Shown here: in pieces, positions 2,976 through 64,000 of the stretch
Numbering within the stretch: position 1 is the first letter of the stretch
Layout: every line of letters begins with the position of its first letter
Assembly (NCBI RefSeq): GCF_019795155.1
Contig: NZ_JAILYN010000028.1
Span: 1-64,000 of the forward strand
From: Marinobacterium arenosum
GTDB lineage: Bacteria > Pseudomonadota > Gammaproteobacteria > Pseudomonadales > Balneatricaceae
Length of the DNA: 64,000 bases
Direction: 5' to 3'
Program-made: the position numbers and the translations under genes
The notes under the pieces: model-generated
What the model was told of the DNA's origin: nothing
What the model saw: only the letters and a program-made list of their open reading frames with translations
The model's database searches: none

Positions 2976-3866
2976 ATGAAGCGCTTGATTTTAGGCGTCG
3001 CCGGCGCGGCGGCGGCCGGTGCGCTGGTGTGGGGAGGGCTTGCGTTCTCCTCGATTGCCGAGCCGGTCTCGATTGCGGCCGACCAGGGGAATGTCGCACG
3101 TGGCGCCTATCTGGCCAGGGCGGGCGGCTGTATCGCCTGCCATACCGACATCGCCGGCGGCGGTAAGCCGCTGGCCGGCGGCGCGCCGCTGGATACGCCC
3201 TTTGGTACCTTTTATGCGCCCAACCTGACCCAAGACCCGCAACAGGGTATCGGCAACTGGACGCTGGAGGATTTCGCCCGCGCGCTGCGGCAGGGCGTTT
3301 CACCGGAAGGGGAGCCGTACTACCCGGCGTTTCCGTACAGCTTCTATACCCGTCTCAGCGACCAGGATATCGCCGACCTCTGGGCGGCCTTTCGGACGGT
3401 GCCCGCTGTTGCGCAACCGTCCAGGGAGCAGCAGCTGGAGTTTCCGTTCAATATCCGCAGCGGTCTGAGGCTCTGGCAGCAGCTGTACCTCGAACGGCAG
3501 CGCTTCCAGCCGTCCGCCGACGCTGATCAGCGCTTCAACCGGGGCGCTTATCTGGTGGAGGGAGCGGCGCATTGCGCTGCCTGCCATACGCCGCGCAACC
3601 TGCTGGGCGGGCTCGATCCTGATGCCGCCTTCCAGGGCGCATCGGGGCTGCCGGACGGCGGCTCCGCGCCGGCGATCACCGCTGCCGCGCTGCAAGCCAA
3701 CGGCTGGACGGTCGAGGATCTGGCGTATGCCCTGAAATCCGGCATCACCCCCGATGGCGATGTGCTGGGCGGCACCATGGGGGAGGTGATTCGTGATGGC
3801 ACCTCCTTCCTGAGCCAGGCCGACCGGGAAGCGATCGCCCACTACCTGCTGAATAACCGCAGCTGA
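2976..3866 (+). CDS. Diheme cytochrome c (membrane-anchored, dehydrogenase-subunit type)
   Basis: 296 aa with an N-terminal uncleaved-looking hydrophobic segment (residues about 4-28). Two heme sites, CIACH and CAACH, sit in tandem class I domains of about 120 residues each. Similar diheme proteins act as the cytochrome subunits of membrane-bound alcohol, aldehyde and gluconate dehydrogenases, passing electrons to the respiratory chain. No dehydrogenase subunit is adjacent, so its donor is unknown. A clear hairpin terminator follows at 3883. Confidence 0.8.
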   Translation: MKRLILGVAGAAAAGALVWGGLAFSSIAEPVSIAADQGNVARGAYLARAGGCIACHTDIAGGGKPLAGGAPLDTPFGTFYAPNLTQDPQQGIGNWTLEDFARALRQGVSPEGEPYYPAFPYSFYTRLSDQDIADLWAAFRTVPAVAQPSREQQLEFPFNIRSGLRLWQQLYLERQRFQPSADADQRFNRGAYLVEGAAHCAACHTPRNLLGGLDPDAAFQGASGLPDGGSAPAITAAALQANGWTVEDLAYALKSGITPDGDVLGGTMGEVIRDGTSFLSQADREAIAHYLLNNRS

Positions 3867-3882
3867 CCCGATTGAGGTGCCC

Positions 3883-3911
3883 AACCGGATACCCGAGGGT
3901 ATCCGGTTTTT
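3883..3911 (+). terminator. Rho-independent terminator
   Basis: AACCGGATACCC, loop GAG, then GGTATCCGGTT followed by T residues: an 11-12-bp stem directly after the diheme cytochrome gene. It should end the transcript covering the genes from 1395 to 3866. Confidence 0.8.
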
Positions 3912-4082
3912 CAATGGCGACGCTGGTTGGCGGCATCGCCGCTGACCTGGGTCAAATGACGGAAAGCCTCACAGAACCCGGCTTTACAGCCAGTCGCCGG
4001 GCCTCAATAATAACAGGGCGTCCCAGCGCCGGATTGGCGATTAACTGCGGACCTTATGTCGATCTGCCGGATTAGCCTGCCC

Positions 4083-4403
4083 ATGAAACATCTCTGTGCG
4101 CTGTTGGCGTTGCTGCTGACCCTGACCTCGCTTCAGGCGGCCGGTTTCGTATCGGGCGGCTCCGCCGGCTGTGCTCCTGAGCAGCATCTTATGTCCGGGC
4201 CGATGACGGATATGTCGTCGAATGTCGCTTGCGCGGACTTGCTGGATGATTGCGAGCGCAGCTGTTTCTCCAAGCAGCGCCCGCCGCTGAGCTATGCCGG
4301 TACACTTTTCTTGGCGCCTGACCGCGCTTTTATCGCCTCCAGGCTGTGCCCGCCGGTGCTGGCGGGGTTTGCCGCAGGCCCCGATCACCCTCCGAAGATT
4401 TAA
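4083..4403 (+). CDS. Small secreted Cys/Met-containing protein, unknown
   Basis: 106 aa. ATG 4083 gives a typical signal peptide (MKHLCALLALLLTLTSLQA). The mature part has Cys residues (GCAPEQH, ACADLLDDCERSCFS) and a Met/Ser stretch (LMSGPMTDMSSN). No family recognised. It belongs to the group of short exported proteins in this copper region (others at 1882, 16620 and 17268). Metal handling is inference from composition and place only. Confidence 0.55.
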   Translation: MKHLCALLALLLTLTSLQAAGFVSGGSAGCAPEQHLMSGPMTDMSSNVACADLLDDCERSCFSKQRPPLSYAGTLFLAPDRAFIASRLCPPVLAGFAAGPDHPPKI

Positions 4404-5350: not shown

Positions 5351-8300
5351 TCAGCTGAGCTGGCGTTTGCGCCAGAGATAGTACACCGCCGGAATCAGCA
5401 GCAGGGTCAGGATCACCGCGCTGACCATCCCGCCGATCATCGGGGCGGCGATACGCTGCATCACTTCCGATCCGGTACCCTGGCCGTACATGATCGGCAA
5501 CAGGCCGGCGATAATGGCGGCGACGGTCATCATCACCGGCCGCACCCGCATGCCGGCCCCTTCGATCACCGCGGCGCGCAGATCATCCAGCTTGATCGGC
5601 TGCTCATGCTGCAGCTTGCGCTGCACCAGTTCGCCGTAGGCCTGGTTCAGGTAGACCAGCATGATCACCCCGATCTCGACCGCCACACCGGCCAGGGCGA
5701 TAAAGCCGACCCCCACCGCTACCGAGAAGTTGAAACCGTTGAGGTAGATCATCCAGATGCCGCCGACCAGCGCCAGCGGCAGGGTGCCCATGATCATCGC
5801 CACTTCGGCAAAGCGGCGGAAGTTCATGTACAGCAGGATGACGATGATCGCCAGCGTCAGCGGCACCACGTAGCTGAGCCGCTCTTTGGCGCGCAGCATG
5901 TACTCATACTGGCCCGACCAGTTGATCGCGTAGCCCGGCGGCAGTTGAACCTCCTCGGCCACCACCCGCTGGGCGTCGACCACATAGGAGCCGATGTCGC
6001 GGCCATCGATATCGACAAAGGTCCAGCCGTTGGGGCGGGCGTTTTCGCTCTTGATCCCCGGCGGGCCGTCCTCGATGTAGATATCCGCCACGTCGGCCAG
6101 GCCGATCCGCTGTCCCAGCGGGGTGATCAGCGGCAGCGCACGCAGCTGCTCCAGCGAGTCGCGGTAGCCCTGCGGATAGCGCACGTTGATCGGATAGCGC
6201 TCCAGCCCCTCGATACTCTGCGATACGTTCATGCCGCCGATCGCCGTGGCCACCACCGCCTGGACGTCGGCGATATTGAGGTCGTAGCGGGAGGCTTTGT
6301 CACGCTTGATATCCACCTTGATGTAGCGCCCGCCGGCGACCCGCTCGGAGTAGACCGAGGCGGTGCCGGGCACCTTGGCCAGCACCTGCTCCAGCTGCTG
6401 GCCGACCTGCTGGATCACCGCCAGGTCGGGGCCGCTGACCTTGATGCCGACCGGGGTCTTGATGCCGGTGGCGAGCATATCGATACGGGTTTTGATCGGC
6501 ATCACCCAGGCGTTGGTCAGGCCGGGGAAGCGTACCAGCTGGTCCAGCTCCTTCTTCAGCTTGTCGCTGGTCATGCCGTCGCGCCACTGTTCGCGCGGCT
6601 TGAGCTGGATAAAGGATTCGATCATGGTCAGCGGCGCCGGATCGGTCGCCGTATCGGCGCGGCCGATCTTGCCGAACACCGTTTGCACCTCCGGCACGGT
6701 GCGGATCAGCTTGTCGGTCTGCTGCAGCAGCTCGCGCGCCTTGCCGATCGAGATACCGGGGTAGGTGGTCGGCATGTACATCAGGTCGCCTTCATCCAGC
6801 GGCGGGATGAACTCGCTGCCGAGCTTGTCCACCGGCCAGAAACCGACCGCAGTGACCAGCAGCGCCAGGCTGATGGTGGCCTTGGGCCACTCCAGCACCC
6901 GTCGGATCACCGGCAGGTAAAGCGCGGTCAGCAGCCGGTTGAGCGGGTTCTTGTGCTCCGGCAGCACCTTGCCGCGCACGAAATAGCCCATCAGCACTGG
7001 TACCAGGGTGATCGCCAGGCCGGCCGCGGCGGCCATGGCGTAGGTCTTGGTGAACGCCAGCGGCGAGAACATCCGCCCCTCCTGGGCCTCCAGCGTGAAC
7101 ACCGGCAGGAAGCTCATGGTGATGATCAGCAGGCTGAAGAACAGTGCCGGGCCGACTTCGGCCGAGGCCTTGCCGATCACCTGCCAGCGGTTCTCGTCGG
7201 TCAGCGGGGTTCGCTCGATATGCTTGTGGACGTTCTCGATCATCACGATGGCGCCGTCCACCATCGCGCCGATGGCGATGGCGATCCCGCCCAGCGACAT
7301 GATGTTGGCGTTGATGCCCTGGTAATACATGATGATAAACGCCGCCAGGATGCCGACCGGCAGGCTGAAGATCACCACCAGCGACGAGCGCAGGTGGAAC
7401 AGGAACAGCGCGCAGACCACCACCACCACGATGAACTCTTCCACCAGCTTCTCGAACAGGTTGTCGACCGCCCGTTCGATCAGCCCGGAGCGGTCGTAGA
7501 CGGTCACCACCTCGACCCCGTCCGGCAGGCTGCGTTGCAGCTCCGTCAGCTTGGCCTTGACGCCGTCGATGGTTTTCTGGGCGTTTTCGCCGAAGCGCAT
7601 CACGATAACCCCGCCGACGGTCTCGCCTTCGCCGTTCAGTTCGGCGATACCGCGACGCATCTGCGGGCCGATCACCACCTCGGCCACATCGGACAGCAGG
7701 ATCGGCGTGCCGTTGACGGTGGCGCCCAGCGGAATCTGGCGCAACGCCTCGGCGCTGTCGATATAGCCCGAGGTGCGCACCATGTACTCCGCCTCTGCCA
7801 GCTCCAGCACCGAGGCGCCGGTCTCCTGGTTGCCGCGCTGGATGGCGTTGCGCACATGGGCCAGCGGCATGTCGAAAGCACGCAGTTTCTCCGGATCGAC
7901 CCGCACCTGGTACTGTTTCACCATGCCGCCGACGGTGGCCACTTCGGAGACGCCGGGCACCGTCTGCAGCTCATACTTCAGGAACCAGTCCTGCAGCGAG
8001 CGCAGCTGGGCCAGGTCCTGTTTGCCGCTGCGGTCGACTAGCGCGTACAGGTAAACCCAGCCCACCCCGGTGGCATCGGGCCCCAGCTGCGGCTTGGCGG
8101 TGGCCGGCAGGCTGGGCGCCACCTGGCTGAGGTACTCCAGCACCCGGCTGCGCGCCCAGTAGAGGTCGGTGTCCTCGTCGAAGATCACATAGACGTAGGA
8201 GTCGCCGAAGAAGGAGTAGCCGCGCACCGTCACCGCGCCGGGTACCGACAGCATCGCCGTGGTCAGCGGGTAGGTTACCTGGTCCTCCACCACCTGGGGC

Positions 8301-8470
8301 GCCTGGCCGGGGTAGCTGGTCTTGATGATCACCTGCACGTCGGACAGGTCGGGGATCGCGTCGATCGGGGTGTTCTTCACGGTGAAGGCGCCCCAGCCGA
8401 TCAGAATCAACGTCGCCAGCAACACGAAGAAACGGTTGGCCAGCGACCAGTGGATGATTTTCTCGATCAC
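5351..8470 (-). CDS. cusA: CusA/SilA-type heavy-metal RND efflux pump
   Basis: 1039 aa, the normal length for HME-RND pumps. Inner-membrane proton-driven transporter that takes Cu(I)/Ag(I)-type cations from periplasm or cytosol through a CusCBA tripartite channel. The N-terminus ([17 protein letters not shown]) and the TM4 motif ([17 protein letters not shown]) are diagnostic of the HME subfamily. Methionines in the porter domain (for example MPTTYPG and [16 protein letters not shown]) fit the Met-shuttle path of CusA. It starts with GTG in a GTGA overlap with the end of cusB, indicating translational coupling. Substrate (copper/silver) is inferred from family and neighbours. Confidence 0.9.
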
Positions 8471-10425
8471 TGCGCACCTCCGTTATCCATCCCCTGGTGC
8501 TGACTGTGATCCATCGCCGGCATTTCTTTCATCGCCGCCGGGCGCTGGCCCTGGCCCGCACTCTGGTCCATGCCGTGGTTCATCCCCTGGTGCTGGCTGT
8601 GGTCCATCGCCGGCGTTTCTTTCATTGCAGCCGGGCTCTGGACTTGGTCCGCACTCTGCTTCATACCGTGGTTCATCCCCTGGTGCTGGCTATGATCCAT
8701 CGCCGGCATTTTTTCCGTCGTCTGACCTTGGCCGGCACCCTGGTCCATACCGTGGTTCATCCCCTGGTGCTGGCTGTGATCCATCGCCGGCATTTTTTCC
8801 ATTGTCTGACCTTGGCCGGCACTCTGATCCATACCATGGTTCATCCCCTGGTGCTGGCTATGATCCATCGCCGGCATTTTTTCCGTCGTCTGACCTTGGC
8901 CGGCACTCTGGTCCATACCGTGGTTCATCCCCTGGTGCTGGCTGTGGTCCATCCCGCCGCTGGCTGCCGGGGCCAACTGATCGGGGATATGGATGGCGCT
9001 GACCAGGGCGCTGTTGCCGCTGCGGGTCATTTCGAAGTGGATCTCCTGACCGGTTTTGACGCCGTTCAGCGCTAGCCCCGGCTGGGTCTGGAAATCCATG
9101 GTCATCGCCGGCCATTGCCAGGCGTCGACGGGATCGTGGCTGATGGTCATCAGTTGACTATCCGGATTGACGCTCCGAACGATCCCTCGGGTCCAGACTG
9201 TTTCGGGCGGCAGCTCCCGCGGTGCCATGCGTTGAAAGTCGGAGCTGATGCTGGACTCCGAATCGAGCAGGAACTGGGCGGAGGTGACCACCTGGTCGTC
9301 CGGCAGCAGGCCTGCATTGATGGCGATCCGGTCGCCCGCCTGCGGGCCCAGCTCCACCGCCACCGATTTGAACTTGCCGTCGCCCAGTGCGACCACCACC
9401 CGCTGCTGGCTGCCGGTGCGGATCACCGCTTCGGCGGGCACGTGCAGGGTCGCGTCGGTCGCCTTGGCAGCAATATCCAGGCGCGCGAACATATTGGGTT
9501 TCAGGGCCTGGTCCGGGTTGTCGAAGCGCAGCCGGACCTTCACGGTGCGGGTCTTGGCGTCGAGCACCGGATAGATGTAGTCCACCGTGCCCTGCCACTC
9601 GCGGCCCGGTGCGTAATCCAGTTGCATGCTGGCGCGCTGGCCGACCTGCAGCCAGGCCGCCTGGCGTTCGAACACCTCGGCGGTCACCCAGACCTGGTCC
9701 AGCGGGCCGATACTCATCAGGGTCAGCGCGGGCTTGATGAACATCCCCTCGCGTACGTTCAGCTGACTGACGTAGCCGCCGCTTTCGGCGCGCACGACGA
9801 TGGTTTGCCGGGCGCTGCCGCGCCGGGCCAGGGCTTTGATCTCCTCGTCGGAAACCCCCAGGGCCCGCAGCTTGTCGCGGGCGGAACGCTGCAGCAGGCG
9901 GTTGTTGCTGCGCCGGGCGGCCAGGTATTCCTCCTGGGCGTTCACCAGCGTCGGAGCATAGAGCTCGTAGACCGGCTGGCCCGCCGCCACGTACTCCCCT
10001 TCGCTCTTCACGTGCAGCACCTGTATCCAGCCCTCCACCCGGGAGTGGAGATGCTTGAGCAGGTCTTCGTCGAAGCCCACGTAGCCGACGCTGCGGATCT
10101 CCGCCTGCAGCGGACCGAATGCGATCGGTGCGGTGCGCACGCCGAGGTTGTTGATCACCTCCGGCGAGATGGCCACGGTGCCGGGGGCGTCGTCGCCGCC
10201 GTTGAGATCCTCCTCGTAGACCGGGATCAGCTCCATCCCCATCGGCGACAGGCCGGGCTTGTCGCGCTTGTAGTTCGGGTCCATCGGGGCGACCCAGTAG
10301 AGCGGTTCGGCTTTACCGCCGGCAGCGGAGGAGGGCGAGGGGGCATCGGCCAGGTAGCTAGTGGCGAGATAGCCGGCGCCGGCGCCGAGGCTCAGCATCA
10401 GCAGGCTGTTAATAACTAACTTCAT
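8467..10425 (-). CDS. cusB: CusB-type membrane-fusion protein with HMBD, CusF-like domain and Met/His repeats
   Basis: 652 aa, much longer than E. coli CusB (about 400). Order: N-terminal anchor (1-25), heavy-metal-binding domain at about 43-70 ([20 protein letters not shown]), the hairpin/lipoyl/barrel adaptor core at about 80-385, a CusF-like copper-binding domain at about 405-480 ([11 protein letters not shown]), then a tail of six repeats (residues about 492-652) each starting [13 protein letters not shown]. The periplasmic adaptor links CusA to the outer-membrane channel. Here a metallochaperone domain and a large Met/His tail are fused to it. GGAGAG precedes the ATG, which overlaps the cusC stop (ATGA). 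Confidence 0.88.
8470..8952 (-). repeat. In-frame 84/93-bp tandem repeats encoding the CusB Met/His tail
   Basis: Six copies of a unit encoding [20 protein letters not shown] and about 8-11 further residues (three units of 28 aa, two of 31 aa, one truncated to 15). DNA copies are almost identical, implying recent expansion or homogenisation. Copy number probably varies between strains. Confidence 0.9.
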
Positions 10426-11723
10426 GGTGTGCTCTCCGCAAGGTCGTCGGCGTTGGCCAGGATGTAGTTCAGGTTGAGGACGCTCTGCTGCCGGGCGCTG
10501 GTCAGCCGGATCCGTTCCAGCCGGCTGTCCAGCTCGGCGATGGCGGCGCGCATCACTTCGGCGAAATCGCTGCTGTCTGCCGCGTAGGCCCGCATCGCCG
10601 CTTCGGTCTGGTGGCCCATCTGCCGCAGCAGACGCTGGTCGAACAGCGCTTCCCGCGCCCGCAGCTGGCGCCAGTTGGCATGTTCGCGGTAGAGCTCGGC
10701 GCGCAGCTCGCGCAGCGCCAGCAGTCGCTGTTCGCGCAGACCCTCATGCTGCTTCACGGTCGCCCGCCGCAGCGGGTCCTGGCGTCGCTCCGGGAACAGC
10801 GGCAGGTCGAAGCTGACCGCCAGGGTGAACAGGTCGGCACGCTCGCGGCCGTCAGGGCTGTCCAGCCGATACCCGTAGTTCGCATCCACCTTGAACTGCG
10901 GGCTGTAGGCCTGCTCACTGAGACTGATATCCTGCTGTGCCACCTTGAGCTGCTGGTCGATGATCTGAATGCGCGGATGTCGCAACAGGCGCTGCTCGTC
11001 GGCCGGCGATAACTGCTCGGCCAGATCGATGGCCGGCCGCAGCTGCGGTCGCTTGTCGGCCAGCGGCTGCAAGGCGGCCTGTTCCGGCAGCCAGCGTGCC
11101 AGCTCGCCGTAGAAGCGGTCACGCTCCTGCTGCAGGCGGGTGATCCGGTCGTCCAGCCGGGTCAGTTCCAGCTCCGCGCGCACCAGGTCGTGGCTGCGGC
11201 TGCCGCCCAGCCGGTAGTTGGCGGTGGCGACGTCGACCAGTTGACGGAACAGGTGACGGTTGTCATTGATCAGCCGGATCTGGGCCTCGCGGCTGTAGAT
11301 CTCCAGCCACAGCCGGCCCGCCATGCGGCGCAGCTGGGCGGCGCGTTCGGCACGCTGCCAGGGGTTGGCATCGGCCTGCAGCTGCAAGCGCTGCTCGCTC
11401 AGCGCCCGGCTGTCGCCGCGGGGAAAGGTTTGCGAGACACCGAACTGCAGCTGGGTCATGTTTTCCTGGTCCAGATCCAGCGTATCGGTGGGCAGATTGG
11501 CCATCGCCAGGCGGACCATCGGGTCGGGCAGGGCGCCGGCGGCGCTGGCCCGTTCGCGCAGCGCCTCCTCCTGCAGCCGGTTGTCGGTTTGCCAGGGGTC
11601 GTTTTGCAGCGCCAGCCTGATGGCTTCGTCAAAGGTCAGCTCTGCCTGGACCGGGCCGGACAGCAGGGCGGTGACCGCAGCGGCCAGCACGCCGGCGCGC
11701 TTTAAAGAAATATCTATCGACAT
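10422..11723 (-). CDS. cusC: CusC/TolC-type outer-membrane efflux protein
   Basis: 433 aa with a signal peptide (AAAVTALLSGPVQA) and two outer-membrane efflux repeats rich in long helices (LTFDEAIRLALQNDPW near the N-terminus). It forms the outer-membrane trimer of the tripartite pump. The ATG at 11723 is preferred over the GTG at 11735 because GAGTGA lies 8 nt upstream and the signal peptide is intact. First of the cusCBA cluster, with an ATGA overlap to cusB. The minus-strand gene at 11802-12203 lies 78 nt upstream and may be co-transcribed. Confidence 0.85.
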   Translation of the reverse strand: MSIDISLKRAGVLAAAVTALLSGPVQAELTFDEAIRLALQNDPWQTDNRLQEEALRERASAAGALPDPMVRLAMANLPTDTLDLDQENMTQLQFGVSQTFPRGDSRALSEQRLQLQADANPWQRAERAAQLRRMAGRLWLEIYSREAQIRLINDNRHLFRQLVDVATANYRLGGSRSHDLVRAELELTRLDDRITRLQQERDRFYGELARWLPEQAALQPLADKRPQLRPAIDLAEQLSPADEQRLLRHPRIQIIDQQLKVAQQDISLSEQAYSPQFKVDANYGYRLDSPDGRERADLFTLAVSFDLPLFPERRQDPLRRATVKQHEGLREQRLLALRELRAELYREHANWRQLRAREALFDQRLLRQMGHQTEAAMRAYAADSSDFAEVMRAAIAELDSRLERIRLTSARQQSVLNLNYILANADDLAESTP

Positions 11724-11801
11724 ATCGGGTTTCACTCGTAAGTAAACAGGTTTGGCTCCCGGGCGCGGACGCGAGGGAGTGACTGACGAGGAAACCGGGA
11801 T

Positions 11802-12616: not shown

Positions 12617-12644
12617 GATGCCAGCCGAGAACTCGGCTGGCATC
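12617..12644 (-). terminator. Hairpin terminator after the HYMM-repeat gene
   Basis: Perfect 13-bp stem GATGCCAGCCGAG / CTCGGCTGGCATC with loop AA, 8 nt after the minus-strand stop at 12653. The T-run on the minus strand is weak and distant, so it could also act as an mRNA-stabilising hairpin. Confidence 0.55.
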
Positions 12645-12652
12645 GAAAAGCG

Positions 12653-13069
12653 TCAGGCGCTATCGTGTGACGCTCCGTCCATCCAATACCCCTGGGGACC
12701 GTCGCCGCCGCGCATCATATAATGCCGTTTTTCCGATCGATCGGCATGACCATACTGCTCGACATGACCGCTCGAAGCCCCTTCGGCGTGGCTCTGTCCG
12801 GACATCAGATGGCCCTGGGGGCCGTCGCCGGCGTGCATCATGTAGTGCCGCCCCTGAGGATGTGCCGGCTCACCGTGGGACAGCGTCTCCCGGTGAGCGG
12901 AGCTTTGTCCGGCGTCGTGGGCTTTGCCCTGCATCGCATGTCCCTGCGGTCCATTGCCGCCGTGCATCATATAGTGCTGCTGGTCTGCTGTTTTTGTCAT
13001 ACCGGCCTGTGCCGCGGTCGAGATAGCCAGGGCTGAAACAATGACGGCCATTGTGCTTTTGATATTCAT
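12653..13069 (-). CDS. Secreted triple-repeat HYMM/GPQGH protein, CueR-regulated
   Basis: 138 aa from the ATG at 13069 (AAGGAG 6 nt upstream) with a signal peptide ending AAQAG. The mature protein is three copies of a unit of about 36 aa whose core is HYMMHGGNGPQGHAMQGKAH, then HYMMHAGDGPQGHLMSGQSH, then HYMMRGGDGPQGYWMDGASH, joined by Ser/His-rich linkers. His, Met and His again at fixed spacing strongly suggest metal sites. No known family recalled. The gene lies alone between cus and cop and has its own CueR-type promoter at 13124-13154, so it is very likely a copper-induced periplasmic binding protein (inference). Confidence 0.75.
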   Translation of the reverse strand: MNIKSTMAVIVSALAISTAAQAGMTKTADQQHYMMHGGNGPQGHAMQGKAHDAGQSSAHRETLSHGEPAHPQGRHYMMHAGDGPQGHLMSGQSHAEGASSGHVEQYGHADRSEKRHYMMRGGDGPQGYWMDGASHDSA

Positions 13070-13123
13070 GGTGGCTCCTTGTGTAACGATTAAATTGCTA
13101 TCTATCTCTAACTTTTGTAGGCA

Positions 13124-13154
13124 GTCTAAAGGTTTCAGCAGCTGGAAGGTCAAT
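13124..13154 (-). promoter_or_regulatory. CueR-type promoter of the HYMM-repeat gene
   Basis: On the minus strand: -35 TTGACC, 19-bp spacer beginning TTCC and ending CTGAAACCTT, -10 TAGACT. The overlong 19-bp spacer containing the activator dyad is the hallmark of MerR-family promoters, and the sequence is close to copA/cueO operators. It ends 54 nt before the start codon. Confidence 0.75.
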
Positions 13155-13343: not shown

Positions 13344-13379
13344 AAAAAAGAAAAAAAAGGAGGGAGCGAGGCTCCCTCC
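13344..13379 (-). terminator. Rho-independent terminator of the cop operon
   Basis: On the minus strand: GGAGGGAGC, loop CTC, GCTCCCTCC, then a run of eight T. It lies just after the copB stop (13389) and ends the minus-strand operon from 17000. Confidence 0.85.
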
Positions 13380-13388
13380 CGGATCGCT

Positions 13389-14096
13389 CTAAAACCAGGC
13401 GCGAATGCCGATCACCGCCTGCAGGTCGTCGGTCGACTCCCCCTCCTCGCGGGCGAAGTCGGCGGTGTCGCCAAACTTGCGCTCCCAGTTCAGGCCGATA
13501 TAGGGGGCGAACTCCCGGCGGATCTCGTAGCGCAGCCGCAGGCCCAGCTCCAGGTCCGACAGGCCTGAGCCGATGCCGCGGCTTGCGTCATCCTCGCCAT
13601 ACAGGTTGAGTTCGATCTCCGGTGACAGGATCAGCCGCTGGCTGAGCAGCAGCTCGTATTCCGCTTCCAGTCGCAGGGCGCTCTGGCCCCCCTCGCCGAT
13701 AAACGCCGTAGCGTCCACTTCGAACTGATAGGGCGCCAGCCCCTGCAGGCCGAAGGCCAGCCACTGCTGCGGCTCGGCCGGCTTGAAATCGTGGCGCAGG
13801 CCGAGTTGCAGGTCCCAGAACGGCGCCACCGCTCTGCCGTACAGCAGCTGCAGTTCGGCGGATTCGGTGCGGCCCGCCAACCGCTCGCCTTCGGACTTCA
13901 GCCAGAGCTTGTCCAGGTCGTAACCGACCCAGCCCTGGACATCCCAGCTCAGCAGGCTGCCGTCATCGGCATCGCGCCACTCCAACTGGTCGATGTTCAG
14001 CATGCCCAGCAGCGGGTCGTCCTCCGTCGCGGCCAGGCCGTTGCCGCTGAACAGCAGGCCGGCGGCGAGCAGCGCGATCAGTGTCTGTGGTTGCAT
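13389..14096 (-). CDS. copB: CopB-type outer-membrane copper resistance protein
   Basis: 235 aa from the ATG at 14096, chosen over 14102 because AGGAG then sits 9 nt upstream; signal peptide [15 protein letters not shown]. It has the pattern of the CopB/PcoB family: LDIDQLEWR-like start, [20 protein letters not shown], and alternating beta-strands ending in Trp-Phe (AVIGIRAWF), an outer-membrane barrel signature. The usual Met-rich N-terminal region is absent, so this is a short form. It works with the periplasmic oxidase CopA, encoded 13 nt upstream, to sequester or export copper. Confidence 0.88.
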
Positions 14097-14109
14097 ATGC
14101 ATTCGCTCC

Positions 14110-15933
14110 TTAAATGACATGGACTTCACGGAACATGCCCGGCATGTGGTAGAGCAGGTGGCAGTGGAACGCCCACTTGCCCGGTGCGTCCGCGGTCACC
14201 TGATAGCTGATGCGGGTGCCCGGCTGGACCACCACGGTGTGTTTGCGGGGCAGGTGGCGGTCGTCGCCGCTCTCCAGTTCGCTCCACATGCCGTGCAGGT
14301 GCATCGGGTGGTTCATCATGGTGTCGTTGACGAAAGTGAACCGCAGCCGCTCGCCGTAGTTCAGCTTGATCGGCTCCGCGTCGGCGAACTTGACGCCGTT
14401 GATCGACCACATATAACGGCTCATGTTGCCGGTCAGGTGCAGTTCGATCTCGCGCTGCGGTTCGCGCCGGTCCCGGGTCTCGTTCAGGTTGCGCAGGTCG
14501 GCGTAGCTCAGTACCCGGCGGCCGTTGTTGCGCAGTCCCACGCCGGGGTCGTCCAGCCGGTATTGCGGATTCTCCGCCCGCATATCCACATGGGGGCCGT
14601 ACTCGGTGGCCGCATGTTTGACCGGCTGAGGTGCGGTCGGCTGAGGTGTGGCCGGCGGTGACATCGCCGCCATATCGTGGCCGGCCTGTTCCGCCATCAT
14701 CCCATGGCGGCTGTGATCTATCGGCATCTGGTGCCCGCTATGGTCCATCTGCATCGCCTTCATGTCATGGCCCTGGTGGCCGCCGCCCGCCATCACATGC
14801 CCGCCGTTGGCCATCCCCATATCGGCATGGCTCAGGATCGGCAGCGGGTCCATCGGCGGTACCGGGGCGGTCAGCCCGGCATCCGGTGTCAGGGTGCCGC
14901 GCGCATAGCCGCTGCGATCGATCGCCTGGGCGAAGACGCAGTAGGCCTGCTGATCGCTGGGCTCGACGATGACATCGTAGGTTTCGGCCACGCCGATGCG
15001 GAACTCGTCCACGCTGACCGGCTCGACATTCTGGCCGTCGGCCGCCACCACCGTCATCTTCAGGCCGGGAATCCGCACGTCGAAGAAGGTCATCGCGGCG
15101 CCGTTGATAAAGCGCAGGCGCACCCGTTCGCCCCGTTTGAACAGCCCTTGCCAGCCCTGCATGGGTGTCTGGCCGTTCATCAGGAAAGTGTAGGTATAGC
15201 CGGTCACGTCGGACAGGTCGCGATCGCTCATCCGCATCCGCTCCCACATCGAGCGGTCCCGCCAGGTGGCGGCCGCTCCCTGGCGGCGCAGATCGGCCAG
15301 CGTGTCGTCCAGCGTGCGCTCGTTGAAGTTGTAGTAGTGGCTCAGTTTCTTCAGCTTGGCGTAGATTGCGTGTGGGTTTTCATCGCTCCAGTCCGACAGC
15401 ATCACCACGTAGTCGCGATCGTAGCTGAACGGCTCCGGCTCCAGCGGATCGATAATGATCGGACCGTACAGCCCGGTCTGCTCCTGAAAGCCGGAATGGC
15501 TGTGATACCAGTAGGTGCCGCTCTGCTGCACCTTGAAGTGGTAGATGAAGGTTTCACCGGGCGGGATGCCGTCAAAGGAGATGCCCGGCACCCCGTCCAT
15601 GCCGGTGGGCAGGATCAGGCCGTGCCAGTGGATGGAGCTGGTCTCGCGCAGCCGGTTGGTGACCCGCAAGGTGACCTCTTCACCCTGTTTCAACCGCAGG
15701 GTGGGGGCCGGCAGGCTGTTGTTCACAGTGGTGGCGAAGCGCGAGCGACCGGTGAAGTCCACCCGCTGGGCGCCGATCGTCAGGTCGATCCGGTTACCGC
15801 TCAACAGCGGAGGCTGTTGGTTGGCGGCCGGGGCGGCGAGCAGCTTGCCGCCCGGCACGCCCAGGCCAGCCACCACGCCGCCCAGTGCCAGCCCTTGTAC
15901 GAATTGCCGTCGGTTCAGATTGATGTTTTTCAT
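14110..15933 (-). CDS. copA: CopA-type periplasmic multicopper oxidase
   Basis: 607 aa with a twin-arginine signal ([12 protein letters not shown], residues 8-19), so it is exported folded. Three cupredoxin domains. The copper ligands are all present: HWHG (102-105), WYHSHSG (142-148), and C-terminal HPMHLHGMW and [12 protein letters not shown] Met/His-rich insert ([20 protein letters not shown], then [23 protein letters not shown]) lies at roughly 375-425, as in PcoA/CopA. It oxidises Cu(I) and binds extra copper. GGAGGAG precedes the ATG. Third gene of the CueR-controlled minus-strand operon. Not to be confused with the P-type ATPase also called CopA (18364-20652). Confidence 0.93.
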
Positions 15934-15952
15934 TCACGTCTCCTCCGCTGGC

Positions 15953-16501
15953 TTAGCGCACGTCCAGTGTTGCTTTCATGCCGGCCTCGTAATGGCCGGG
16001 CAGGTTGCAGGCGGCTTCGAAAGTGCCGGGCCGGCTGAAGGTCCAGATGAGTTGTTGGGTTTCGCCGGGCGCCATGCTGACGGCATTGCCCTCGTCATGC
16101 GCCATATCCGGCATCTCGCGCATCATCTGTGCGTGCCGGCGCATCTCGTCTGAGTCGCCGATAGCGAATTCGTGGCGCAGGCGGCCGTTGTTGGTGACGA
16201 TAAAGCGAATGGTTTCACCGGCGTTTATCCGCCAGCTGTCCGGCGAGAAGCGCATGCTGTCATCGGCACTGACCTGAAGGGTGCGGTCGATATCCGCCAG
16301 CCGGCCAGGATGGCCGGCGGCGGATCCGATATGGCCGCGCCCCGGATGTGCCCCGTCGGGCATTTCCGGGTGATGCGCCATGCTGCCGTGGCCGTTGTGG
16401 CCGTTGTGGCCGTTGTCCATGCCATGTCCGGCTGAGCTGCCGGCGACAGCCGGAGCGCCGAGAATCAGAGCAGCCAGGGCGAATGGAGTGACTTTGTTCA
16501 T
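15953..16501 (-). CDS. Cupredoxin-like copper-binding protein (CopI type)
   Basis: 182 aa with signal peptide LILGAPAVAGS. A His/Met-rich N-terminal segment (HGMDNGHNGHNGHGSMAHH) is followed by a single plastocyanin-like domain with the type 1 copper ligands: His in RLRHEFAIGD and the C-terminal Cys-His-Met set (EAACNLPGHYEAGM). CopI/CopC-like cupredoxins of this type help periplasmic copper tolerance. It lies 19 nt upstream of copA in the same operon. Confidence 0.85.
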   Translation of the reverse strand: MNKVTPFALAALILGAPAVAGSSAGHGMDNGHNGHNGHGSMAHHPEMPDGAHPGRGHIGSAAGHPGRLADIDRTLQVSADDSMRFSPDSWRINAGETIRFIVTNNGRLRHEFAIGDSDEMRRHAQMMREMPDMAHDEGNAVSMAPGETQQLIWTFSRPGTFEAACNLPGHYEAGMKATLDVR

Positions 16502-16619: not shown

Positions 16620-17000
16620 TCAGAACCGAGGTCGGGGAGGGCGTTTAAGCGGGAACTGGCGTATCGACGGCGGCATCGTGGTCGCGCCGGCCTGCAGGTA
16701 ATGGATCGGAGCCGCGGGGGAAAACAGGTCGGCCGGACAGAGGTCGCAGCCTTGCAGGCAACAGCCGCAGTCCAGTATGCCGCCGCACTGCGCCGCGCAG
16801 TCGTTGGCGCATAGCGCCTGCATCACCGACATCTGATCGTGCTGCTGCCCATGACCGGTGGCGCCCTGTGTATGTTCCACAAGAGAGCCGGTGCCCTGTT
16901 CGCTTGGCGGCGGGTAGAAACCGGCACTGCTGGTTGCCGGCCCCGCTAGCAGCAGCAGGGCGAACAGGCAACTGATGAGGCTCTGTAGCCGGAAAGTCAT
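16620..17000 (-). CDS. Secreted Cys-rich protein heading the cop operon, unknown
   Basis: 126 aa from the ATG at 17000. A signal peptide (LISCLFALLLLAGPATSSA) precedes a mature part with a dense Cys cluster (CANDCAAQCGGILDCGCCLQ, then GCDLCPADLF) that could bind Cu(I) or form disulfides. An earlier ATG at 17057 is ruled out because it falls in the -10 of the promoter at 17056-17086. The Shine-Dalgarno is distant (AGGAG about 13 nt upstream). First gene after the CueR-type promoter, so copper-induced; no family recognised. Confidence 0.6.
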   Translation of the reverse strand: MTFRLQSLISCLFALLLLAGPATSSAGFYPPPSEQGTGSLVEHTQGATGHGQQHDQMSVMQALCANDCAAQCGGILDCGCCLQGCDLCPADLFSPAAPIHYLQAGATTMPPSIRQFPLKRPPRPRF

Positions 17001-17055: not shown

Positions 17056-17086
17056 AAGGTAAGGCTTCCAGCAAGGGAAAGGTCAA
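17056..17086 (-). promoter_or_regulatory. CueR-type promoter of the cop operon
   Basis: Minus strand: -35 TTGACC, 19-bp spacer TTTCCCTTGCTGGAAGCCT, -10 TACCTT. The spacer is nearly identical to the E. coli copA CueR operator (TTCCCCTTGCTGGAAGG). It should drive the genes from 17000 down to copB. Confidence 0.85.
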
Positions 17087-17685: not shown

Positions 17686-18087
17686 GTGAACATCTCTCAG
17701 GCGGCCAGCCAGACTGGCCTTAGCAGCAAGACCATCCGTTTCTATGAGCAGCAGGGCATTATCCGCCCGGCGGCCCGGGCGGAGAACGGTTATCGCACCT
17801 ACAACGCCGCGCAGATTGCGCAGTTGCGGTTTATCAAGCGGGCGCGCGATCTCGGCTTCAGCCTGCAGGAAAGCCATGAGTTGCTGCAGTTGGCGGAAGA
17901 TCCGCAGCGGCGCAGTGCCGATGTGAAGCGGAAGTTTCTCGAGAAACTGGCCGCCCTCGAGGCGGAGATCGATCAGCTGCAACAGAAGCGGGCACTGATG
18001 CTGGGTACGGTGGATCGCTGTCCGGGTGATGAGGGGGCCCGCTGCCCGATTATCGACCAGTTGACGGCCGGGGAGTCGGCATCCTAA
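17686..18087 (+). CDS. cueR: CueR-type copper-responsive MerR regulator
   Basis: 133 aa starting at GTG 17686. An N-terminal MerR winged helix (MNISQAASQTGLSSKTIRFY) is followed by the dimerisation helix and a Cu(I)-binding loop with Cys112 and Cys120 (RCPGDEGARCP). These positions and spacing match E. coli CueR, so it should sense monovalent Cu/Ag/Au. It activates promoters with a 19-bp spacer; three such promoters occur within 5 kb (13124, 17056, 18196). Confidence 0.92.
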   Translation: MNISQAASQTGLSSKTIRFYEQQGIIRPAARAENGYRTYNAAQIAQLRFIKRARDLGFSLQESHELLQLAEDPQRRSADVKRKFLEKLAALEAEIDQLQQKRALMLGTVDRCPGDEGARCPIIDQLTAGESAS

Positions 18088-18195: not shown

Positions 18196-18226
18196 TTGAC
18201 CATCTAGCGACTGGAACCTTTAGTTT
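18196..18226 (+). promoter_or_regulatory. CueR-type promoter of the copper ATPase gene
   Basis: -35 TTGACC, 19-bp spacer ending GACTGGAACCTT, -10 TAGTTT. The right half of the dyad matches the promoters at 13124 and 17056; the left half is degenerate. It lies about 140 nt upstream of the ATPase start, in a stretch otherwise without a gene (18088-18363). Confidence 0.65.
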
Positions 18227-18363
18227 GATTATGGAGAAACGCTCTGTCGGCACCGGCGCCTTCTGTCTACGCTGCCAGGGCGCGCCATTTAACCAGCTGC
18301 GCGGTTAGCTTCTGCTGACAATCGAAGCGGGCGTCCGCGCATGCATTAACAGCGGTGAATACC

Positions 18364-20652
18364 ATGGCGTCCGTACAAGACCAGGAGCAATGCCACAGTC
18401 ACGCTCAACCAGGACAGTCCGCCGCCCGCCGGGAACTGCTGATCGAAGGCGCCGGCTGTGCCAGCTGCGTCGGCAAGATCGAAAAGGCCCTGAAACAGGT
18501 GCCGGGGGTGCAGGACGCGGTGATGAACTTCGCCCAGCGCACCGTCACCGTGACCGGCGACGCCGCCGAGGCGCAACTTATCAAGGCGGTCGAGGCGGCC
18601 GGCTACAACGCCCGGGGCACCGAAGCGGAAGCGGAAAGCGACCTGCTGGCGGAGAAGGAGCAGGCGGACTGGGCCTACTACAAGCGGCTGATGCGCGAGA
18701 TGGCCATCGCGCTGGCGCTGGGCATTCCGCTGATGATCTACAGCATCGTCGTCGGCGAGATGACGGTCACCACCAACCTGGAGCGGCTGGCCTGGCTGCT
18801 GGTGGGCCTGCTGACCCTCGGCGTGATGCTGTTTTCCGGCCGCCATTTCTATGTCGGCGCCTGGAAGTCTTTTCTCAACCACAGCGCCAATATGGACACC
18901 CTGATCGCGCTCGGTACCGGTACCGCCTGGCTGTACTCGATGGTGGTGGTGTTCTTCCCGCAGGCGGTGCCGGAGATGGCGCGCCACGTCTACTTCGAAG
19001 CCACCGCGATGATCATCGGTCTGATCGACCTGGGGCTGGCACTGGAGGTCAAGGCACGCGGCCGCACCTCCGAGGCGATCAAGCGGCTGATCGGCCTGCA
19101 GGCGAAAACCGCCCGGGTGATCCGCGACGGCCAGGAGCTCGATATTCCCATCGAGCAGGTGTTGGCGGACGACCGGGTACGGGTGCGGCCCGGCGAAAAG
19201 ATCCCGGTGGATGGGGTGGTGACCGACGGACATAGCGCGGTGGATGAGTCGATGCTGACCGGCGAGCCGATGCCGGTGGAGAAGGGCGTCGATGACGAGG
19301 TGGTCGGCGGCACCCTCAACAAGACCGGCTCGCTGGTGTTCCGGGCCACCCGCGTCGGCAAGGACACTGCGCTGGCGCGGATCATCCAGATGGTCAAGCG
19401 GGCGCAGAACTCCAAGCCGCCGATCGGCCGGCTGGCGGACCTGATCGCCGGCTATTTCGTGCCGGTGATCATGATCATCGCGGTGCTCAGTGCGCTGGCC
19501 TGGCTGAATTTCGGTCCCGAGCCGGCGATCGCCTTCGCCATCGTCTCGGCCACCACCGTGCTGATTATCGCCTGCCCCTGCGCGCTGGGGCTGGCCACGC
19601 CGATGTCGGTGATGGTCGGGGTCGGCAAGGCGGCGGAGGCCGGGGTGCTGATTCGCAACGGCGAGGCGCTGCAGACCGCCTCGAAAATCAGCGCGATGAT
19701 CCTCGACAAGACCGGCACCATCACCGAAGGCACGCCCCGGGTGACCGAGATCCACCGCACCGCGCAGCGCAGCGAGGCTCAGCTGCTGCAACTGGCGGCC
19801 AGCCTGGAGGCGGGCTCGGAACACCCGCTGGCGGTGTCGATCGCCGAGTCCGCCCGCGCGCGTAGCCTCCCGCTGGATGCTGTCGAGCAGTTCCAGGCCC
19901 TGGCCGGCCAGGGGGTACGCGGCAGGGTGAATGGCCATGCCCTGCTGTTCGGTAACGAAAAGCTGATGCGTGGCGCAGGTGTCGAGATCGCCGGCCAGGT
20001 CGACCGGGCGCAACAGCTGGCGGCACAGGCGCAAACGCCGATGTACTTCGCCGTTGACGGTCAGCTGGAGGCGATCATCGCGGTGGCCGATCCGCTCAAG
20101 GAGGATTCCATCGCCGCCATCAAACGGTTGCAGGACGACGGTATCCGGGTGGTGATGCTGACCGGCGACAACCGTGCGACCGCCGAGGCGGTGGCCGCCA
20201 AGGCCGGTATCAGCGAGTTCTTTGCCGAGGTATTGCCGGAGGATAAGGCCGGCAAGGTGGTCGAACTGCAGCGCCAGGGCGAGGTCGTCGGCATGACCGG
20301 CGACGGCATCAACGACGCCCCGGCGCTGGCCCAGGCCGATGTCGGCTTCGCCATCGGCACCGGTACCGATGTGGCGATCGAGAGCGCCGACGTCACCCTG
20401 ATGCGCGGCTCGCTGCACGGTCTGGCCGATGCGATCGCGGTCAGCAGGGCGACCCTGCGCAATATCAAGCAGAACCTGTTCGGCGCCTTCATCTACAACG
20501 TGGCCGGGGTGCCGTTCGCCGCCGGTGTGCTGTACCCGTTCTTCGGGCTGCTGCTCAGCCCGGTGATCGCCGGCGCGGCGATGGCGTTCTCATCGCTGAC
20601 GGTGGTCAGCAACGCCAACCGGCTGCGGTTGTTCAAGGCGCAGCAACACTGA
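18364..20652 (+). CDS. copA: Copper-exporting P1B-type ATPase
   Basis: 762 aa. One N-terminal HMA domain with GCASC near residues 31-35, preceded by a His-containing lead (CHSHAQ). Eight membrane segments. The transport-site motif CPC ([12 protein letters not shown]), phosphorylation motif DKTGT, ATP-binding SEHPLA and hinge [11 protein letters not shown] are all intact. Cys-Pro-Cys with downstream YN and MSS ([25 protein letters not shown]) defines the P1B-1 Cu(I) exporter class. Starts possible at GTG 18355 or ATG 18364; neither has a strong Shine-Dalgarno. Driven by the CueR-type promoter at 18196 and followed by a cupredoxin gene 13 nt downstream. Confidence 0.93.
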
Positions 20653-61993: not shown

Positions 61994-62253
61994 CAGTTGG
62001 TTTGGCTGTGTATCCTGTTTGTGCGTCAAATATTTATTGATCTGCCACCAAAGAGGCATGAATCGCGCTGGAAGCTCGTGGAAAACTGTTGCAGAATCAA
62101 ACAGATGGATAGCGGGGCGGGTAGATAGTGAGACCCCGTATAATGCGGATATGAAGCATGCGTGGTTTGCAAGGAAGCAGATATCGAACACTCCTTAGTA
62201 TCTCCTTCCTTTTCAATCGGTTATCTCTACCTATGCGCAGTCTTGTATGGGGA
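61994..62253. repeat. Left copy of a ~260-bp direct repeat flanking the ATPase
   Basis: CAGTTGGTTTGGCTGTG through TTGCAAGGAAGCAGATATCG to TATGGGGAGA is repeated at 63738-64000. In translation the conserved part of both copies contains KRHExxWKLVE and, in another frame, a Cys-x-x-Cys stretch followed by KEADIEH. The copies are diverged (perhaps one difference in six), so the duplication is old. No gene is called in it. The gap 61922-62302 otherwise shows none. Confidence 0.8.
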
Positions 62254-62302
62254 GATATACGGCATGTTGTATATGCAAATGTTATAAATTTGCTTAACTC
62301 AG

Positions 62303-63616
62303 TTGGAAAAGAGAAATAAATTGGAAATCCATGAATTAAAGAAGGTCTTCACTCCTAGTAGACCTGCAAGAGTAACGTTTGTAGATCGCGATGAATTCAA
62401 CGATGATATCGTTACCGCACTAGAGCTTCCTGGAACTCAATTGGTTGTGTTTGGACACACGGGTTCTGGAAAAAGTACGTTAGTTCAAAACCTTCTACAT
62501 CGAGTGTATGAGAAACAAATAACTACCAATTGCATGAAAGGCATGACATTTGAAGAGGTTGTTCTAGATGCTTTTGATGAGTTGGGTGAGTTTTACATTG
62601 ATGAGGTAACCAATAATGTTAAATCATCAATCAATGGTAGAGCTAAAGCTAATTATTTAGCTATTCAAACTCAGCTCCAAGCCAGTATTGAAAGCGGTCA
62701 AGCTCATAAACAAAAACGTTACTTGCCACCACAATTAACACCTCAGAGGTTAGCTAAACTTCTCGGTGAGGCTGGATATTGCTGGGTGCTTGAAGATTTT
62801 CATAAAATTGAGGGTGAAGAGAAAGAGAAGTTAGCACAAATGATGAAAGTGTTTGTTAACTTGTCTGATGAGCACGAAGATTTGAAAGTTATTGCAATCG
62901 GCGCTGTAAATTCAGCAAGGGAGGTTGTGGAAACTGATGCAGAAATGAATACCAGAATTTCTGAATTTCAAGTTCATTTAATGAACAATGATGAAATACG
63001 AGAAATAATCAAAAAAGGTTGTAAAGCCTTAAATATAATCATTCCTGAAAGATTACAAGATGAAATCATCCATTACTCTAATGGTCTTGGATCCATTTGC
63101 CACAAGCTTTGTTATTTTATGTGTGATGCTGCACTTGTAAAGGAAACGGTTCCCCAGCCTATTGAATTTGACTACAACGATCTCAAAGAAGCTTTGAAGC
63201 GGTATATTAAAAGTGTAGAAGACACTATTAAAAAATCGTTCGACAAGGCGATGAAGGTTCCCTCAACGGAAAACACTTTGCGTATCGTTGCTCATCAGGA
63301 ACAGGATGGTGCTCAGCTTGAGGCTCTACATGACTGGGCTGCAGAACACCATATAAAAATATCTAAGAATAAACTCAAAACAGATCTGGCAAAGTTGGAA
63401 AAAGAAGACTTCGGTGAGCTGATTAAGTTCGATGAAAATTCTTGGAAATATAGTTTTTCAAATCCATTTTATGGTGCGTTTGCATTGGCTTATTTCGAAG
63501 AGCAAGACAAGAAAATGCATTCTGCCAAGAAAAAGTCTCAAAAAGAAATGATGCAACTGCTTAATGAAGCCTTCAAGACATTTTCTAGTAATGTTGCACC
63601 GGAAGACGGAAACTAA
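62303..63616 (+). CDS. AAA/STAND-like P-loop ATPase, acquired cassette
   Basis: 437 aa, probably starting with TTG at 62303 (a TTG at 62321 is an alternative; no in-frame ATG is near the N-terminus). Walker A GHTGSGKST (51-59), Walker B-like CWVLEDFHKI, sensor-like VIAIGAVNSAREVVE, and an Arg-containing NTRISEF. The C-terminal third is Lys-rich and helical and looks like a winged helix. The family is that of Orc1/Cdc6-like or STAND-type ATPases. Clearly AT-rich against its neighbours and bracketed by direct repeats, so it is likely horizontally acquired. Role unknown; a single-protein defence ATPase is a guess only. Confidence 0.75.
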   Translation: MEKRNKLEIHELKKVFTPSRPARVTFVDRDEFNDDIVTALELPGTQLVVFGHTGSGKSTLVQNLLHRVYEKQITTNCMKGMTFEEVVLDAFDELGEFYIDEVTNNVKSSINGRAKANYLAIQTQLQASIESGQAHKQKRYLPPQLTPQRLAKLLGEAGYCWVLEDFHKIEGEEKEKLAQMMKVFVNLSDEHEDLKVIAIGAVNSAREVVETDAEMNTRISEFQVHLMNNDEIREIIKKGCKALNIIIPERLQDEIIHYSNGLGSICHKLCYFMCDAALVKETVPQPIEFDYNDLKEALKRYIKSVEDTIKKSFDKAMKVPSTENTLRIVAHQEQDGAQLEALHDWAAEHHIKISKNKLKTDLAKLEKEDFGELIKFDENSWKYSFSNPFYGAFALAYFEEQDKKMHSAKKKSQKEMMQLLNEAFKTFSSNVAPEDGN

Positions 63617-63689
63617 AAATTCTAACATAGCATTTAAGAGTAACTCCCAACGCTTAGAAAGTGAGGTCAGATGAAGATTTTTGGTTTGG

Positions 63690-63723
63690 GCGGAAAGTGG
63701 GGTCAGGCGGAAAGTGGGGTCAG
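63690..63723. repeat. Tandem 17-bp repeat GGCGGAAAGTGGGGTCA x2
   Basis: Two perfect copies (63690-63706, 63707-63723) directly before the right repeat copy; GTGAGGTCAGATGAAGATTT nearby is a diverged third. GTGGGGTCAG strings commonly occur at mobile-element ends in gammaproteobacteria. Confidence 0.65.
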
Positions 63724-63737
63724 ATGAGACTTTCATA

Positions 63738-64000
63738 CAGTTGGTTTGGCTACGTGACTGGTTTGCAGGTGAAATTTTCATTGACCTGACATCAAAGAGG
63801 CACGAATTGTGCTGGAAGCTCGTGGAAAAATGTTTCAGAATCAAGCAGATGGAATACGGGGCCGGGTAGCTAGAGAGGACTCCGTATACTGCAGATATGA
63901 AGCATGCATGATTTGCAAGGAAGCAGATATCGAACATTTATCATTATCACCTTCCTTCTCAATCGTCTATATCTGGCTATGTGTTTTCTGGTATGGGGGA
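63738..64000. repeat. Right copy of the ~260-bp direct repeat (reaches the window end)
   Basis: Aligns with 61994-62253. In this copy a frame is open from about 63785, with an ATG at 63830, to the end: MFQNQADGIRGRVAREDSVY, then CRYEACMICKEADIEH. It may be the beginning of a Cys-containing gene running past the window, of which the left copy is a damaged piece. Not called as a gene because its end is unseen. Confidence 0.6.

Follow-up and report, generated by a model that had tools for sequence, protein, structure and literature searches.

The HYMM-repeat gene and its surroundings

The locus lies in a 64,000-nucleotide stretch of Marinobacterium arenosum DNA that was analysed as a whole (the window), and its features are listed in Table 1. 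As originally predicted, there is a reading frame for a 138-residue protein, which we refer to as the HYMM-repeat protein. It lies on the minus strand, and the product has an N-terminal Sec-type signal (MNIKSTMAVIVSALAISTAAQA, recognised by eye). The protein is presumably exported to the periplasm; the predicted export stands, and we replace the earlier word 'secreted' by 'exported'. The mature protein of 116 residues contains 15 His, 10 Met and no Cys residues, and its predicted structure is of low confidence (mean pLDDT 39.6, from an input of two sequences).

The cueR gene and a set of copper genes are found within 10 kb. Three other features of the window are noted. The CusB protein (8467–10425, minus strand) has a fused CusF domain followed by a long C-terminal repeat tail that is another His/Met-rich array. 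Ahead of copI-copA-copB, and behind a second CueR box, is a gene for a small Cys-rich, exported-looking protein (16620–16997, minus strand) that matches no Pfam or NCBIfam family. The segment from 62001 to 64000 has a G+C content of 0.40, compared to about 0.62 elsewhere, and is perhaps foreign.

Table 1. Positions of the HYMM-repeat gene, its parts, its control sites and the neighboring copper genes in the window.
Feature	Position	Strand	Basis or remark
Downstream genes for Cu/Ag efflux, cusC-cusB(-CusF domain)-cusA	5351..11735	minus	cusB by family match; cusA and cusC by sequence and homologues
12-bp perfect hairpin after stop codon, possible transcript end	12617..12644	minus	z -5.0; no U-run directly behind
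HYMM-repeat protein CDS (P0001)	12653..13069	minus	138 aa; ATG at 13069, stop ends at 12653; relatives found
Unit 3, HYMMRGGDGPQGYWMDGASH, residues 116-135	12665..12724	minus	unit alignment
Unit 2, HYMMHAGDGPQGHLMSGQSH, residues 75-94	12788..12847	minus	unit alignment
Unit 1, HYMMHGGNGPQGHAMQGKAH, residues 32-51	12917..12976	minus	unit alignment
Signal peptide, residues 1-22, ending AQA before G	13004..13069	minus	by eye
Shine-Dalgarno AAGGAG, 5 nt 5' of ATG	13075..13080	minus	read from DNA
CueR-type promoter, TTGACCTTCCAGCTGCTGAAACCTTTAGACT, TTGACC-19-TAGACT, 19-bp spacer	13123..13153	minus	consensus from PMC1526738
Terminator-like site 3' of upstream copB operon, separating it from the HYMM gene	13358..13380	minus	terminator scan
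Copper genes beside the HYMM gene: copI-like, copA (multicopper oxidase), copB	13389..16501	minus	Pfam/NCBIfam matches
Second CueR box, before orf16620-copI-copA-copB	17056..17086	minus	template and pattern match
CueR, presumed regulator	17686..18087	plus	TIGR02044, above cut-off
Third CueR box, weaker, before Cu(I) P-type ATPase gene	18196..18226	plus	template score 17/24
Copper-exporting P-type ATPase CopA	18355..20652	plus	read from sequence; 75-80% identity to homologues in relatives' loci

The repeated unit

The repeat is not a chance resemblance. Reading the window in all six frames gives exactly three matches to the pattern HYM-x3-G-x-G-x-QG-x2-M-x-G-x2-H, each of them within the HYMM-repeat protein. 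The units, each 20 residues long, start at residues 32, 75 and 116 and are thus spaced 43 and 41 residues apart, not the 36-residue unit first proposed. The three spaced His/Met units that had been described as copies of HYMMxGGxGPQGHxMxG are present, but the third (HYMMRGGDGPQGYWMDG) reads GPQGY and is missing the His of GPQGH. At the DNA level the three are 70–73% identical, with dN of 0.23–0.27 and dS of 0.67–2.3 (rough values, at 20 codons per unit), which suggests that they are old repeats kept by selection at the protein level. Among relatives, position-matched units differ with dN of about 0.13–0.43 and synonymous sites near saturation, and the pattern is still conserved.

An alignment of 28 units shows which positions are retained. 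Y2, M3 and H20 are present in all 28, and H1, G7, G9, Q11, G12, M15 and G17 in 27. The second Met of HYMM (M4) is found in 21 units, with Pro, Gly or Ser in the rest, and the His of GPQGH (H13) in 17, with Tyr in 8. Because M4 and H13 vary, the conserved candidate ligands are H1, M3, M15 and H20 (HYM...MxGxxH), rather than the HYMM plus HxM arrangement suggested at the outset; one metal site per repeat is plausible. The linkers between units are poorly conserved across relatives.

A CueR-type promoter and a probable separate transcript

CueR promoters have the consensus ACCTTCCC-(5)-TGGAAGGT with a 19-bp spacer (PMC1526738), and the prediction that the HYMM gene has a CueR-type promoter of its own is borne out. 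Scored with a 24-position template, the site before the gene (13153–13123) is the top match of the window at 20/24, a score that is descriptive in that the template was composed after the site was seen; in 20 Markov-simulated windows of equal length the maximum was 19. The pattern TTGACCTT-N17-TANNNT has two exact matches in the 4.8-Mb genome, and a reversed control pattern has one. The two lie before the HYMM gene and before orf16620-copI-copA-copB, in the same copper cluster and near cueR; the pattern was likewise picked after seeing the first site, and the position of the other match was unforced. The genome encodes CueR, and the dyad of the CueR regulon (ACCTTCC...GGAAGGT type, within the 19-bp spacer) is present with an imperfect right half-site, the half away from the -35 being GAAACCT compared to GGAAGGT. 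Searches for a generic ACCTT/AAGGT dyad, allowing three mismatches, performed at chance level, and the template combining promoter and dyad was used instead. An ordinary sigma-70 scan found no promoter here, as expected from the 19-bp spacer. The terminator-like site after copB and the strong hairpin after the HYMM gene indicate that the latter is probably its own transcript.

Relatives and their regulatory settings

The HYMM-repeat protein has no match to a family in Pfam or NCBIfam, and nothing significant for the family emerged from sequence and profile searches of the PDB, in agreement with the earlier view that no named family covers it; nothing relevant was found in the literature on HYMM or GPQGH with copper. 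A single match to SASP_sspL, an unrelated spore family, in one member was disregarded.

A whole-genome search found relatives in 5 of 57 sampled genomes of the same GTDB family (the window's own genome counted), and a profile search in 11 of 116 genomes of that family, representing 6 of 16 genera and including Neptunomonas marina (genus g12). No relatives were seen outside the GTDB family in samples of the order (391 genomes), class (369) and phylum (398), which as samples do not prove absence elsewhere, and searches of plasmids and viral contigs gave no homologues outside it either. Carried by only about 10% of the family's genomes, the gene is dispensable. Most relatives have three units with near-identical spacing, whereas two units are present in G106 and in the second G030 copy. 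Two HYMM genes per cluster are found in genus g16 (113–385 and 3694–4101 in locus L009; 8049–8456 and 11762–12172 in L033), the second copy having two units in G030 and three in G095. A tree of ten family members contains just one well-supported fork.

Two regulatory settings are seen. In genus g16, TTGACCTTCCAGTTAGGGGAATATTTAAACT-like CueR-type boxes occupy the same position before the gene (with one base missing in G097), L033 has a similar box before its copper ATPase gene, and the g16 genomes with the HYMM gene have CueR. The regulation could nonetheless be different in g16, since the nearest MerR-type regulator there is not CueR but CadR/PbrR-like, with a different box. Also beside the HYMM gene in g16 is a gene for an 84-residue, small exported-looking protein without a family match (L009, 4215–4469, minus strand; L034, 323–577, plus strand); its own CueR-like box scores very well (21/24).

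In Neptunomonas (g12), G106 and g8, the HYMM gene and a gene for a copR-type response regulator (TIGR01387, above cut-off) are divergently oriented, with a TTACA-N4-TGTAA dyad between them. Each 20-kb locus has one or two copies of this dyad, against an expectation of 0 to 0.3. By sequence comparison the dyad is close to TGACA-N4-TGTCA, which CopR and CusR bind (PMC12428095). In g5 and g7, the HYMM gene is preceded only by one-mismatch versions of the dyad. The family therefore appears to belong to the copper regulon under two unrelated regulators, CueR in some genera and CopR in others.

Most loci with enough sequence have copper genes, of the ATPase, CusCBA, CopA/CopB or CopC kinds, within about 10 kb (L034 is too short to judge). 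The copper surroundings of the relatives, together with their CueR or CopR boxes, strengthen the link of the protein to copper, and the family is a genuine, lineage-restricted and uncharacterised one within the copper response.

A proposed role in copper buffering

Because the relatives keep both the units and the copper setting, the HYMM-repeat protein is probably an undescribed periplasmic copper buffer or carrier. More specifically, we think it likely that the protein is induced by copper and binds Cu(I)/Ag(I) in the periplasm, where it buffers about three Cu(I). In favor of this reading are the CueR box, the copper genes around it, the control boxes and copper genes of the relatives, the invariance of the candidate ligands, the His and Met content and the Ag+ binding of SilE peptides. 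Counting against it are the imperfect half-site of the CueR dyad, the CadR/PbrR-like neighbor in g16 and the small share of family genomes that carry the gene. A rise in cytoplasmic Cu(I) would activate CueR, which, judging from the box, would switch the gene on from its own promoter, and the Sec pathway would export the product. Each flexible unit, HYM-x3-G-x-G-P-Q-G-x2-M-x-G-x2-H, could then close at the GxGPQG turn, gripping one Cu(I) between its His-Tyr-Met half and its Met-x-Gly-x2-His half, using two His and two Met residues. The three units would hold about three Cu(I) until efflux by CusCBA or oxidation by CopA, with this stoichiometry and these partners as presumed ones. We advance more tentatively, as something a little short of an even chance, that the unit is a new modular two-His two-Met clamp for Cu(I)/Ag(I) closed by the Gly-Pro turn, and that its protein family, undescribed so far and limited to a single GTDB family, was separately recruited into the CueR and CopRS regulons.

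The extent of conservation within the unit bears on two alternatives. Y2, Q11 and the glycines vary as little as the His and Met residues do, which is beyond the need of a plain sponge, and CusCBA genes are near in the window and within 10 kb of the HYMM gene in the g8, g5 and g7 loci, with CopA in others. The protein might accordingly serve not as a buffer but as a dedicated shuttle, handing Cu(I) on to, for example, the CusF-bearing CusB or the multicopper oxidase CopA, with the invariant Tyr and the Gly-x-Gly-Pro-Gln-Gly stretch as a docking surface. We regard this as unlikely, because no single partner gene adjoins the HYMM gene in all loci (in g12 its immediate neighbors are copR and the copper ATPase gene) and the window's CusB already has a CusF domain of its own. 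The same conserved Tyr, Gly, Pro and Gln residues could also mark a member of the copper regulon without metal binding, e.g. an envelope-stress or surface protein whose His and Met content serves something else, metal binding being deduced from the sequence; this is quite improbable given that H1, M3, M15 and H20 rank with the best-conserved residues across genera while the linkers are poorly conserved. Finally, the protein could be the precursor from which a ribosomally synthesized copper-binding peptide is made by enzymatic modification, as in the Cys-based bufferin/HvfA RiPPs. Such a precursor would likewise be small, exported and under copper-type control, and there is a weak NCBIfam HvfA match (E 0.11, 13 bits versus a cut-off of 95), but since the protein lacks Cys and the genome's four MNIO genes (PF05114) are all on other contigs, we consider this very improbable.

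Comparison with known copper-binding proteins

If the buffering role is correct, an unnamed family joins the few listed buffers of copper in the periplasm, with a compact, repeated metal site within one 20-residue peptide. The kind of function is known, and the family and its unit appear not to have been described previously. The HYMM gene also exemplifies retention within the copper response under differing regulators, CueR in some genera and CopR in others.

CopM of Synechocystis is a copper-binding resistance protein whose gene is beside copRS (PMC4335983), as at the Neptunomonas locus. We distinguish the two by the absence of any family match, and of any significant PDB match, for the HYMM family.

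CusF/SilF, a small Cu(I)/Ag(I) chaperone of the periplasm, is encoded beside CusCBA and has a His and Met Cu(I) site in a folded single-site domain. The HYMM-repeat protein is similarly His/Met-containing, predicted to be periplasmic and encoded near CusCBA, but it does not match PF11604, hhalign also shows no relation, and the window's CusF-type domain is the one fused to CusB.

The closest parallel is with SilE/PcoE, periplasmic Ag+/Cu+ sponges that are disordered until the metal is bound. They resemble the HYMM-repeat protein in size (143 compared to 138 residues), export, a metal-responsive promoter of their own, repeated His/Met motifs and Cus/Sil-type efflux genes nearby. The sequences are unrelated, in that NCBIfam NF047789 scores a SilE control at 250 bits and the HYMM-repeat protein not at all, and BLASTP and hhalign found nothing between them. 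SilE is a six-ion sponge with motifs at helical i,i+3/i+4 spacing, MxxHxxxxxHxxM and HxxMxxxHxxM (PMC5008109), which the HYMxxxGxGxQGxxMxGxxH units do not fit, although HYMM itself fits the SilE motif HXXM, and this piece is found in 21 of the 28 units; SilE peptides carrying HXXM and HXXMM motifs bind Ag+ (PMC10080550). The HYMM units are Gly/Pro-rich, with conserved H-x-M and M-x4-H, and are unlikely to form a SilE-like helix, so the geometry of the site would differ. Buffering or shuttling of Cu(I)/Ag(I) in the manner of SilE/PcoE, by an unrelated and lineage-restricted family whose metal binding we infer, is the most likely role.
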